From Pelagibacterales bacterium SAG-MED13 (GTDB taxonomy: Bacteria; Pseudomonadota; Alphaproteobacteria; Pelagibacterales; Pelagibacteraceae), in assembly GCA_014654165.1 (NCBI GenBank), contig JACWDK010000004.1, forward strand, positions 1 through 61,230: 61,230 nucleotides of DNA. The letters are read 5' to 3'. A program made the position numbers and the translations under genes. Of the stretch, positions 51,373 through 54,630 are shown in pieces. The notes under the pieces are model-generated. The model did not search any database. It had not been told where the DNA came from and saw only the letters and a program-made list of their open reading frames with translations. Position 1 is the stretch's first letter; the number at the start of each line of letters is the position of its first letter.

Positions 51373-52152
51373 TTATATATTAGTGGTTGCTAACATTTTT
51401 TTTATTTCAGCAATAGCTTTTGCTGGGTTTAAACCTTTAGGACATGCACTAGTACAATTTAAGATAGTATGGCATCTATAAAGTTTAAGTTCATCTGCTA
51501 CTTTTTTTAATCTAGCTTCTCTCTCTTCATCTCTGCTATCCACAATCCATCTGTAAGCCTGTAATAATACTGCTGGACCTAAATACTTGTCTCCATTCCA
51601 CCAATAACTTGGGCAAGATGTGGAACAACAAGCACACATAATACATTCATAGGCACCATCTAGTTTTTCCCTGTCTTTTTTTGATTGAATAATTTCTGTA
51701 GTTTCTGAATTTGAATTTGATTTTAACCAGGGTTCTATAGATTGATATTGTTTATATAAACCATCTAAATCACCAATTAAATCCTTTTTAACTTTTAAGT
51801 GAGGTAATGGATAAATATCTATATCCCCATCAATTTCAGAATGAGGAGTAGTACAAGCCAATCCATTTTTACCACCCATGTTCATTGCACAAGAACCACA
51901 AACTCCATGAGCACAAGATCTCCTATAAGCAATAGATGGATCAATCTCATTTTTTATTTTGTTTAAAACATCTAAAACTTTTGAAGGACAGTTATCCATA
52001 TCAACCTCATAAGTATCAATTCTAGGGTTTTTTCCTGTTGAAGGATCCCATCTGTAGACATTAACTTTTCTTAAGTTTTTAGAACCTGTTTTGTCTTTGA
52101 AATAATTACCTTTTTGAACTTTAGAGTTTTTAGGTAAATTAATCTGGACCAT
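51373..52152 (-). CDS. sdhB: Succinate dehydrogenase iron-sulfur subunit
   Basis: A 259-residue electron-transfer subunit. The [2Fe-2S] ligands are in [15 protein letters not shown] and the following GLACTT. The [4Fe-4S] and [3Fe-4S] ligands are in [17 protein letters not shown] and [20 protein letters not shown]. All expected cysteines are present, including the Trp-rich quinone-side PSYWW. Its ATG overlaps the sdhA stop by one base. It ends 42 bp before mmsA. Confidence 0.98.
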
Positions 52153-53927
52153 TAATAAACTCTTTCTTGGGGAGGAAAATATTGAACTTCATTTGTAAGA
52201 GTAGTTTTATGAACTTCTCTATAACTTATTTTTGTTTCTTTTCCATCGCACCAAGCAAGTGTATGTTGCATAAATTTTTCATCATCTCTTTTAGGATAAT
52301 CTTCTCGTGCATGTGCTCCTCTACTTTCTTTTCTATTATAAGCGGAGTCTACAGTCACAACTGCTTGTCTAATTAAATTGTCAAATTCTAAAGTTTCAAC
52401 CAAATCTGTATTAAAGATTAATGATTTATCTTTAACTGATATCGATTCTAAACCATCATAAGTTTTTCTTATTTCCTCAACACCCTCTTTTAAAGTTTTT
52501 TCTGTTCTAAAAACTGCACATTTAGATTGCATTGTTTTTTGCATTGATAATCTTAATTCTGCAGTTCCAATGTCACCATCAGCGTTTCTAATTTTGTCAA
52601 ATCTATCAAGACATTTTTGTGTTTCAGACTCACTAATTTCTTCATGTGGCATTCCTGGTGTAACTAATTCTGCTGCTCTTTTAGCTGCAGCTCTTCCAAA
52701 TACTACAAGATCAATTAATGAATTAGATCCTAATCTGTTCGCTCCATGAACAGAAACACATGCAGCTTCACCAATAGCCATTAAGCCTGGAACGGTTTTT
52801 TCTGATCCATTTACTGTTAATACCTCTCCCTTATAATTTGTCGGTATTCCACCCATATTGTAATGAACTGTAGGAACTACTGGAATTGGTTCTTTGGTAA
52901 CATCTACATTAGCAAATAATCGCGCTGCATCAGTTATACCAGGTAATCTATTTTCTATAATTTCTTTATCTAAGTGACTTAAGTTTAAATGAACATGGTC
53001 TTGATCTTTTCCTACACCTCTTCCTTCATTAATTTCTATTGACATAGATCTACTTACAACATCTCTAGAAGCTAAATCTTTAGCATTAGGAGCATACCTC
53101 TCCATAAATCTTTCACCTTTAGAGTTCGTAAGATATCCTCCTTCTCCTCTAGCACCTTCAGTTATTAACGTGCCATGACCATAAATCCCTGTTGGGTGGA
53201 ACTGAACAAACTCCATATCTTGTAAAGGTAATCCCGCTCTAAGCACCATTGCATTACCATCGCCGGTACATGTGTGTGCAGAGGTAGCAGAATAATAAAC
53301 TTTTCCATAACCACCTGTTGCGATTATAACTGAATGTGCTCTAAATCTATGAATTGTTCCATCATTTAGATTCCATGCTATTAAACCTTTGCACTCGCCA
53401 TCTTTCATTAATAAATCTAACGCAAAATATTCTATAAAAAACTCTGTCTTATGTTTTAAAGCTTGTCCATACAAGGTATGCAATATTGCATGACCAGTTC
53501 TATCTGCTGCAGCACAGGTTCTTTGAACAATTCCATTACCATAATTTTTTGTCATACCACCAAATGGTCTTTGATAAATCTTTCCATCATCCGTTCTACT
53601 AAAAGGGACACCATACTTTTCTAGCTCAATAACTGCTTTAGGTGCTTCTTTACACAGATATTCAATGCTATCTTGATCACCTAACCAATCTGCTCCCTTA
53701 ACAGTATCATACATATGCCATCGCCAATCATCTTCTCCCATATTCCCAAGTGCTGCTGAAATACCGCCTTGAGCTGCAGAGGTATGACTTCTAGTGGGAA
53801 ATACTTTTGAGATACATGCAGTTTTTAATCCAGCTTCGCTTAATCCTACTGATGCTCTTAGTCCAGAGCCACCAGCACCTAAAACTACTACATCATATTC
53901 ATGATCTATTATTTTGTAAGAACTCAT
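52152..53927 (-). CDS. sdhA: Succinate dehydrogenase flavoprotein subunit
   Basis: A 591-residue catalytic subunit. FAD is covalently linked at His48 in [23 protein letters not shown] binds the ADP moiety, [21 protein letters not shown] forms the dicarboxylate site, and [15 protein letters not shown] is the capping C-terminal motif. It overlaps sdhD by 4 bp (ATGA) and sdhB by one base. Confidence 0.99.
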
Positions 53928-54247
53928 AATTTAGATATTAATATAATTGTAATTAACGGAATTACCACCGCTGAAGCAACTAAAAGCTTATTTGCGACAT
54001 TTTTGATTTTATCATTTTGGATATAATCCTCAAAAACCTCACTAATACTCAAAGCTGAAAAGAAATATGCATTAATAATAAAAATACTGAATAAAAATTT
54101 TGATAATGAGTTTGTAAAAAAACTTTTAACTTCAATAAATTGTTGATCATAAATCGAAATTAAATTCAAAACAAACCACAACATTAATGGAATTAAAATG
54201 GCACCACTAATTTTTAAAAAAATCCATTTTTTAGTTGCTAAAATCAT
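53924..54247 (-). CDS. sdhD: Succinate dehydrogenase membrane anchor SdhD, lacking the heme-ligand histidine
   Basis: A 107-residue, three-helix anchor (about 12-32, 48-66, 84-105) identified by position in sdhCDAB and by the retained quinone-site Asp74-Tyr75 in VFEDYIQ. The protein contains no histidine at all. Aligned on Asp-Tyr, the residue 12 before the Tyr (heme b axial ligand, E. coli His71) is Phe63. The N-terminal His and Arg that contact heme propionates in E. coli (His14, Arg20) both align with Lys. So heme b cannot be ligated as in known SdhD. It is coupled to sdhC and sdhA by 4-bp overlaps. Confidence 0.9.
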
Positions 54248-54630
54248 AAAATAAAATTTTTTCCTATTAGATAAAAAATAACAGTAAAAATTATTGAGCC
54301 AAATATAACAATAAGACCTGTAATTTTAGTGGTTTGAATTTCAAAACCATATCCAAGATCCATAATTAAGTGTCTTATTTCACTTAAAATCTGAAATAAA
54401 AATGACCAAGTAATCCCTAGAATTATAAATTTGCCAATAAAAGAATTTAAAAAAGAATATATTGCTTCATAATTATTTTCTCCAAGTAAAAGTGATGAGG
54501 CCCAAAAACAAATTATCGTAATTGCAATTATATTTATTATTCCAGTTATTCTATGAGAAATTGATACCAAAGATGAAATGTGCCATCTATAAATTTGTAT
54601 ATGAGGAGAAAGAGGTTCTTTATTTTCCAT
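54244..54630 (-). CDS. sdhC: Succinate dehydrogenase cytochrome-b-type subunit SdhC, lacking the heme-ligand histidine
   Basis: A 128-residue, three-helix subunit. The N-terminus PLSPHIQIYRW is typical. The quinone-site Ser23 and Arg27 (SISHR) are kept. The conserved stretch before IRHLIMDLGYG reads FLFQILSE, where Paracoccus and E. coli have a His four residues before the Gly. Here Gln80 replaces that axial heme ligand and Glu replaces the Gly. Together with SdhD this predicts loss of heme b. It overlaps asd by 11 bp and sdhD by 4 bp, consistent with one transcript. Confidence 0.93.
   Translation of the reverse strand: MENKEPLSPHIQIYRWHISSLVSISHRITGIINIIAITIICFWASSLLLGENNYEAIYSFLNSFIGKFIILGITWSFLFQILSEIRHLIMDLGYGFEIQTTKITGLIVIFGSIIFTVIFYLIGKNFIL

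Follow-up and report, generated by a model that had tools for sequence, protein, structure and literature searches.

Loss of both heme b ligands in the membrane anchors of a Pelagibacterales complex II points to a heme-free enzyme of type C descent

The genome of Pelagibacterales bacterium SAG-MED13 encodes a complex II (succinate dehydrogenase) whose two membrane anchor subunits, SdhC and SdhD, carry neither of the histidines that ligate heme b in Escherichia coli. The genes are located in a stretch of 61,230 nucleotides (positions 1 to 61,230 of contig JACWDK010000004.1, assembly GCA_014654165.1), which is referred to here as the window. All coordinates are those of the window, and all features listed are positioned on its minus strand. 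Judged by the residues of its subunits, the enzyme is very probably heme-free: it would descend from a type C complex II, retain the delivery of electrons from the [3Fe-4S] cluster to ubiquinone, and contain a compensating pair formed of SdhC Glu84 and SdhD Lys12.

Heme-ligand and quinone-site residues of the anchors

SdhC (128 residues, 54244..54630) belongs to the family PF01127 (Sdh_cyt) with 99.7 bits, and SdhD (107 residues, 53924..54247) with 28.9 bits at a cut-off of 25.8. The place of the SdhC ligand, His84 of E. coli, is occupied by Gln80 (54391..54393). This replacement had been proposed in a preliminary description of the DNA made from the letters alone; the codon CAG was confirmed, phmmer sets q80 opposite H84 of 1nek_C, and the alignment to E. 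coli K-12 agrees. The motif from which the position had been counted, G-I/L-R-H, led to the correct ligand place, but the glycine of the motif, E. coli Gly88, is Glu84 in the window (54379..54381), which the description had passed over. On the SdhD side, Phe63 (codon TTT, 54059..54061) is positioned at the place of His71. The claim that SdhD lacks histidine altogether was borne out by a count of zero, and the assignment of Phe63 by the alignment to E. coli K-12 SdhD and by the predicted fold. The subunit is also devoid of cysteine. A different histidine replacing the SdhD-side ligand was ruled out, because the window SdhD has none.

SdhD Ser67 (54047..54049) corresponds to E. coli Gly75 according to the column comparison, and SdhD Lys12 (54212..54214), the presumed partner of SdhC Glu84, corresponds to Arg20. 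The codon check places Lys6 (54230..54232) at the position of His14. Both lysines had been described as replacements of heme-propionate contacts. The residues are as stated, but the weight given to His14 was lost: histidine is present at SdhD-14 in 19 of 87 loci of the class (Alphaproteobacteria), so its change says little. SdhC His87 (54370..54372), equivalent to E. coli His91, is kept and would be the chief candidate for a residual heme ligand, if there is one.

The quinone site is conserved. SdhC Ser23, His26, and Arg27 (54550..54564) match Ser27, His30, and Arg31, which belong to the E. coli quinone site and its surroundings, and SdhD Asp74-Tyr75 (54023..54028) match Asp82-Tyr83. SdhB is 51% identical to its E. 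coli counterpart, and its Trp185 and His228 match the quinone residues Trp164 and His207. The conservation of Ser23/Arg27 and Asp74/Tyr75 had been noticed before, and it was upheld both by alignment and by the column contrast described below, in which these positions are unchanged. The enzyme therefore has the ubiquinone site of type C, composed of SdhC Ser/Arg, SdhD Asp-Tyr, and SdhB Trp/His. It also has two SdhC/SdhD-homologous anchors with three-helix membrane cores, as recognized from Pfam and predicted folds, and the ligation of heme b by one histidine per anchor is absent (Gln80, Phe63). Anchors of the FrdC/FrdD family, expected of type D, were not found: SdhC reaches 25.4 bits on Fumarate_red_D (cut-off 25) versus its 99.7 on Sdh_cyt, and SdhD gives no Fumarate_red_D match.

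The single-chain folds were predicted with a mean predicted local distance difference test score (pLDDT) of 88.5 for SdhC and 95.2 for SdhD. The SdhC fold resembles 1nek_C with a template modeling (TM) score of 0.73 (Foldseek E 6.8e-4, probability 1.00). A sequence search for a solved structural relative of SdhD returned only a chance match. Because the SdhD alignment is weak by sequence, the predicted fold was used as a further basis; it resembles 1nek_D with a TM score of 0.86 at 1.6 Å and a Foldseek probability of 1.00, but an E value of 0.023.

Ligand states and the glycine signature across genomes

Ligand states are given as SdhC-84/SdhD-71 in E. coli numbering. Numbers of genera and families are arbitrary; g1 and f1 are the genus and family of the window, and f2 is the second family of the order. 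All 58 genomes of g1 that were read, including that of the window, are without both histidines (Q/F in 48, Q/Y in 10). The sample consists of 29 of the 37 genomes of a first scan, eight of which were unmatched, 27 distinct genomes among the best-scoring loci of a wider scan, and loci L143 and L194. The wider scan matched 271 of 298 genomes, and most of its other g1 matches lie outside the 58. Two fragments (L200, L201) and three repeats (L117, L121, L124) were left out. A base error behind the ligand changes was ruled out by the identical loss in all 58 same-genus genomes. The closest named relatives of the window SdhC, with 98–99% identity, are L033–L037 from Pelagibacteraceae or Pelagibacterales records, and the organism thus belongs to SAR11.

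Both histidines are kept in four genera of the family: g5 (3/3), g6 (3/3), g7 (4/4), and g10 (1/1). Two genera lack the SdhD histidine and have either histidine or glutamine in SdhC, namely g8 (n = 33; H/F in 27, Q/F in 6) and g9 (H/F in 2, Q/F in 4), and g1 lacks both. In f2, the state is Y/H in g2 (6/6 read) and g4 (1/1) and H/H in g3 (2/2). Every matched genome of the wider scan was read for g3, g4, g5, g6, g7, g9, and g10, and six were read for g2. Among the readable loci from other parts of the class, 147 of 152 are H/H (84/87 and 63/65 in two batches). The 152 come from 153 matched genomes; in the remaining one, G448, contig ends divide the locus (L402, L403), and SdhC-84 is missing. The five exceptions are L213 (H/Y), L217, L225, and L400 (Y/H), and L399 (Y/V). 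Outside the class, H/H was read in 39 of 39 loci hand-picked from the matches. L305 (H/Y), chosen in the same sample for its small genome, is a further class locus outside the 152. An alignment over many relatives, which the preliminary description had suggested as a check, came out in its favor: the loss is general in g1, and the histidine pair is nearly universal in the rest of the class and among the loci picked outside it.

Another 80 named loci were found by patterns, one of which required F[QY], and this set is therefore biased towards the loss. Over the 138 genus and named rows, which contain 108 distinct SdhC sequences, several positions are nearly invariant (0.06 bit at SdhC-84, 0.00 at SdhC-88, and 0.00 at SdhD-82/83). 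The aligned SdhD is without any histidine in 118 of these rows, whereas SdhC His91 is kept in all 138 and His30 in 136.

The column contrast set 150 loss-clade rows against 97 bis-His (H/H) rows and was made before the later-read loci were added; 80 of the 150 are the named loci with their bias towards the loss. The highest-ranking of the 122 SdhC columns is Gly88, with glutamate in 150/150 loss-clade rows and glycine in 97/97 bis-His rows; His84 ranks fourth. Among the 109 SdhD columns, His71 ranks first and Gly75 second, followed by Val19 (4), His14 (7), and Arg20 (17), and SdhD-20 is lysine in 147 of the 150 loss-clade rows. The residues of the quinone site have the lowest ranks. Family rows without the SdhD histidine have glutamate at SdhC-88, serine or threonine at SdhD-75 (asparagine in one row), and nearly always lysine at SdhD-20.

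The glycines SdhC-88 and SdhD-75 each follow a ligand by four residues. Of 200 bis-His rows, 199 have both, and each of the 190 ligand-lacking rows shows a replacement at one or both positions. The count covers 295 rows and the readable later additions; most of the 190 rows represent one clade, and they include named loci, some of which duplicate genomes already counted, so that they are not an independent count. Positioned one helical turn from the ligands, the two glycines may leave space for the porphyrin. The only bis-His exception, L175 of g10, has serine at SdhD-75 together with both ligand histidines; it could be an intermediate that preceded the loss, or a return.

The order of the losses was assessed from trees of SdhA, which served as a marker other than the genes under study. 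For the smaller tree, 79 loci were chosen, 78 yielded SdhA, and one short sequence was dropped, leaving 77 rows; the larger tree has 81 rows and no class rows. Genera g1, g8, g9, and g10 are united on one starred branch (100/99 in the 77-row tree, 100/98 in the 81-row tree), beside the H/H genera g5–g7. On this branch the SdhD histidine is missing in all rows except g10, SdhC has histidine or glutamine, and the H/F state persists in g8 and part of g9. Glutamine at SdhC-84 requires four changes in the 81-row tree, all of which are forced by starred branches. Changes between histidine and glutamine at this position, whether gains or returns, were therefore recurrent, and are most simply explained by repeated loss of the histidine. 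The loss of the SdhD histidine may have been one event or two. The fork that places g10 is unresolved in the 77-row tree, and in the 81-row tree g10 is found among g8 and g9 rows at an unstarred branch (83/92).

Ligand replacements of other kinds were observed in other lineages. In f2 (L032, L195, L198, L199, L334, L335, L336) the SdhC ligand is tyrosine, SdhC-88 is cysteine or serine, and the SdhD histidine is kept, so that the loss is one-sided and affects the subunit opposite to that in the family of the window. Exchange of the SdhC histidine for tyrosine is accompanied by serine at SdhC-88 and glutamate at SdhD-75 in L217 (G400), by glutamate at SdhD-75 in L225 (G446), and by glutamate at both positions in L400 (G424). 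In L399 (G381), which lost both ligands, SdhC-88 is threonine and SdhD-75 glutamate. The SdhD-75 glutamate of these four loci is at the place of yeast Sdh4 Glu112, and they are possibly further heme-free enzymes; the SdhD subunits of L399 and L400 were recognized weakly (12.8 and 23.5 bits). The SdhD histidine is replaced by tyrosine and that of SdhC kept in L213 (G453, genome of 1.4 Mb), with serine at SdhD-75, and in L305 (G581, 1.5 Mb), with cysteine at SdhC-88.

Proposed mechanism, rival explanations, and cause of the loss

The two heme propionates of the E. coli enzyme are bound by SdhD Arg20, SdhC His91, and SdhB His207 in one case and by SdhC Arg31 and SdhD Gln78 in the other; Arg20 and Arg31 are pseudo-symmetric, and SdhC His30 packs on a pyrrole (PMC3290573). 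The heme is not on the route that electrons take between the [3Fe-4S] cluster and the quinone, and a heme-free variant grows on succinate, with lower rates and less stability (PMC3290573). Yeast complex II contains no heme according to cryo-electron microscopy; its Sdh4 Glu112, at the glycine place of heme enzymes, forms a salt bridge with Sdh3 Arg97, replacing a propionate (PMC13066397).

Because the glycine-to-glutamate change of yeast is, judged by its distance of four residues from the ligand, at the place of SdhD-75, the mirror of which is SdhC-88, and because the mirror of Arg31 is SdhD-20, a pair of SdhC Glu84 and SdhD Lys12 is proposed for the enzyme of the window. Its membrane anchors would no longer bind heme b, and electrons would pass directly from the last iron-sulfur cluster to ubiquinone, probably with normal activity. 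The four-helix bundle would be held without the porphyrin by packing, involving Phe63 and Ser67, and by the new polar pair. In this pair Glu84 would stand in for a propionate and Lys12 would replace the propionate-binding arginine, giving a counterpart, reflected across the pseudo-twofold axis, of the yeast pair of Sdh4 Glu112 and Sdh3 Arg97.

A heme-free but quinone-active complex II had already been suggested in the preliminary description. The ligand loss and the quinone site stand as observations, from which we infer the absence of heme; this reading is now strengthened by the stepwise pattern of loss among sister genera, by the glycine-to-glutamate change, and by the precedent of yeast. 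A more comprehensive account is offered tentatively, at somewhat less than even confidence. It holds that one of the Earth's most abundant lineages of bacteria relies on a heme-free complex II for its tricarboxylic acid cycle and its respiration, that the SdhD histidine was lost and the SdhC glycine changed to glutamate first and SdhC histidine was exchanged for glutamine later and repeatedly, that the Glu-Lys pair mirrors that of yeast, and that the glycine pair reads out heme loss from sequence alone.

Several observations weigh against these readings. SdhC still has His26 and His87 close to the pocket, where they could hold heme weakly, and E. coli mutants of the axial ligands reportedly retain heme. 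Placement of g10 within the loss clade, on its unstarred branch, would imply two losses of the SdhD histidine or its return, and the bis-His locus of g10 already carries serine at SdhD-75. The Lys12 position is arginine in 3 of the 138 genus and named rows. Lysine at SdhD-20 is also present in bis-His enzymes (five class rows and one more read later), and the change from arginine to lysine is therefore not specific. The states of f2, L213, L217, L225, L305, L399, and L400 may or may not signify heme loss.

It is improbable that heme b is still bound through a changed ligand, with SdhC His87 or His26 on one side and a weak ligand or none on the side of SdhD, in a five-coordinate or loose form. 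The almost complete conservation of these two histidines and the behavior ascribed to the E. coli mutants speak for such binding. A substitute histidine in SdhC had been named as a possible objection to the heme-free reading, and His26 and His87 are indeed present near the pocket, but the SdhD face offers none: the window SdhD supplies neither histidine nor cysteine, and SdhD histidines are missing from most genus and named rows. Furthermore, heme-binding enzymes keep the equivalent residues for other reasons, His91 as a propionate partner and His30 as a residue packing on a pyrrole, and glutamate at SdhC-88 and serine or threonine at SdhD-75 replace glycines that bis-His enzymes almost always keep. 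A separate heme-binding anchor encoded elsewhere was set aside, because no second Sdh_cyt gene was found in the source genome (1.01 Mb assembly, 86% complete).

Decay of the anchors, in which the complex would be poorly functional and the changes would reflect drift in a reduced genome, is very hard to reconcile with the near-invariance of the glutamine, the glutamate, and the quinone-site residues, with four intact and tightly overlapping genes, or with the degree of SdhB identity and its retained quinone residues. Among the other genomes of the class, ligand losses are confined to those of at most 2.0 Mb (5/45 versus 0/107; Fisher p = 0.0019, uncorrected for kinship), which would fit decay, but the test concerns heme ligands and not decay. 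Occupation of the old heme cavity by another molecule with a structural role, a lipid such as cardiolipin or a quinone, is unlikely, though less so than either of these alternatives. Cardiolipin is positioned at the heme place in Tetrahymena, and a phospholipid reaches deeper in yeast (PMC10227065, PMC13066397), but the bulky side chains and the Glu/Lys pair of the window favor a core made of protein. A filler of this kind could coexist with the absence of heme and would alter only a detail of the proposal.

The reason for the loss may be economy, as the preliminary description had suggested for an open-ocean bacterium. With heme, each enzyme contains ten iron atoms, 2 + 4 + 3 in the clusters and one in the heme, and without it nine, so that saving of iron or heme is possible. 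The genera that keep both histidines presumably include freshwater or coastal ones. Since the SdhD loss may have been one or two events, an effect of ecology cannot be told apart from one of shared ancestry. In SAR11, expression of a gene for iron transport increases under iron shortage (PMC11069385). The source genome encodes ferrochelatase and cytochrome oxidase subunit I (COX1, a heme-copper oxidase), and the idea that the organism is generally devoid of heme was rejected on these grounds. The confinement of ligand losses to small genomes in the rest of the class suits relaxation as well as it suits saving. A relaxed constraint around a non-essential heme as genomes became reduced, with compensation afterwards, accounts for the data no worse than iron saving does.

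The operon sdhCDAB is complete, with all four genes intact, in the order C-D-A-B, and packed with tight overlaps. The gene sdhD overlaps by four bases with sdhC and by four with sdhA (flavoprotein subunit, 591 residues, 52152..53927), which is followed by sdhB (iron-sulfur subunit, 259 residues, 51373..52152); both were identified from their open reading frames and Pfam. A gene recognized by Pfam as a semialdehyde dehydrogenase, which we take to be aspartate-semialdehyde dehydrogenase, is located 5' of sdhC. It shares 11 bases with the beginning of sdhC (54620–54630), and sdhC may therefore belong to a longer operon. By the look of their sequences, the genes after sdhB resemble those of methylmalonate-semialdehyde dehydrogenase and malate dehydrogenase.

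Comparison with known complex II enzymes

The complex II of the window has two membrane anchor subunits, as does E. coli FrdABCD. This type D enzyme has no heme in its anchors (PMC3290573, PMC10238741), as is proposed for the enzyme of the window, in which the ligands are absent, but its usual reaction is fumarate reduction (PMC3290573). In a 2023 review, class C is marked by one b heme and class D by none (PMC10238741). E. coli SdhCDAB shares with the window the anchor folds, the quinone residues, the SdhB Trp/His pair, and the gene order, and differs in the wild type by its bis-His heme b, glycines at SdhC-88 and SdhD-75, and arginine at SdhD-20 (PMC3290573).

The complex II of Tetrahymena thermophila is, as proposed for that of the window, a natural succinate dehydrogenase without heme b, but it has a divergent six-helix bundle, extra subunits, and cardiolipin at the heme place, and its authors assign it to type D (PMC10227065). 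A heme-free succinate dehydrogenase has also been described for Perkinsus (PMC13066397). The Saccharomyces cerevisiae enzyme resembles that of the window in its type C descent, retained quinone site, replaced SdhD-side ligand histidine, and glutamate in place of the glycine four residues past a ligand position; extra hydrogen bonds and bulky residues that replace the heme in yeast are probably shared as well (PMC13066397). In yeast, however, the SdhC-side histidine is kept and hydrogen-bonded to Tyr108, whereas the window has lost it, and the glutamate is part of the SdhD homologue (Glu112), whereas that of the window belongs to SdhC; one organism is a eukaryote, the other a bacterium (PMC13066397). 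The combination of glutamate at SdhD-75 with a kept SdhC-side histidine is absent from g1, which has serine or threonine at SdhD-75 and glutamine at SdhC-84. The H/F state of g8 and g9 is closer to yeast, with the SdhC-side histidine retained and that of SdhD lost.

The preliminary description knew of no comparable report. For heme-free succinate dehydrogenases as such this no longer holds, given those of yeast, Tetrahymena, and Perkinsus and the working E. coli variant, but it stands for Pelagibacter: among the matches listed from open-licence PubMed Central papers, judged by title and the start of the abstract, no report of this was found for SAR11/Pelagibacter or for bacterial enzymes lacking heme. 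The purpose of the complex II heme has long been disputed, as it is off the electron path and dispensable in E. coli. A graded natural series with two, one, and no ligands in a single bacterial family provides a ready-made comparison. It is also relevant to how SAR11 spends its iron and heme, and it suggests that two residues can be used to test from sequence for heme in complex II genes elsewhere. Relative to the known systems, the enzyme of the window appears to be new as a bacterial heme-free complex II derived from type C, with compensating residues of its own.

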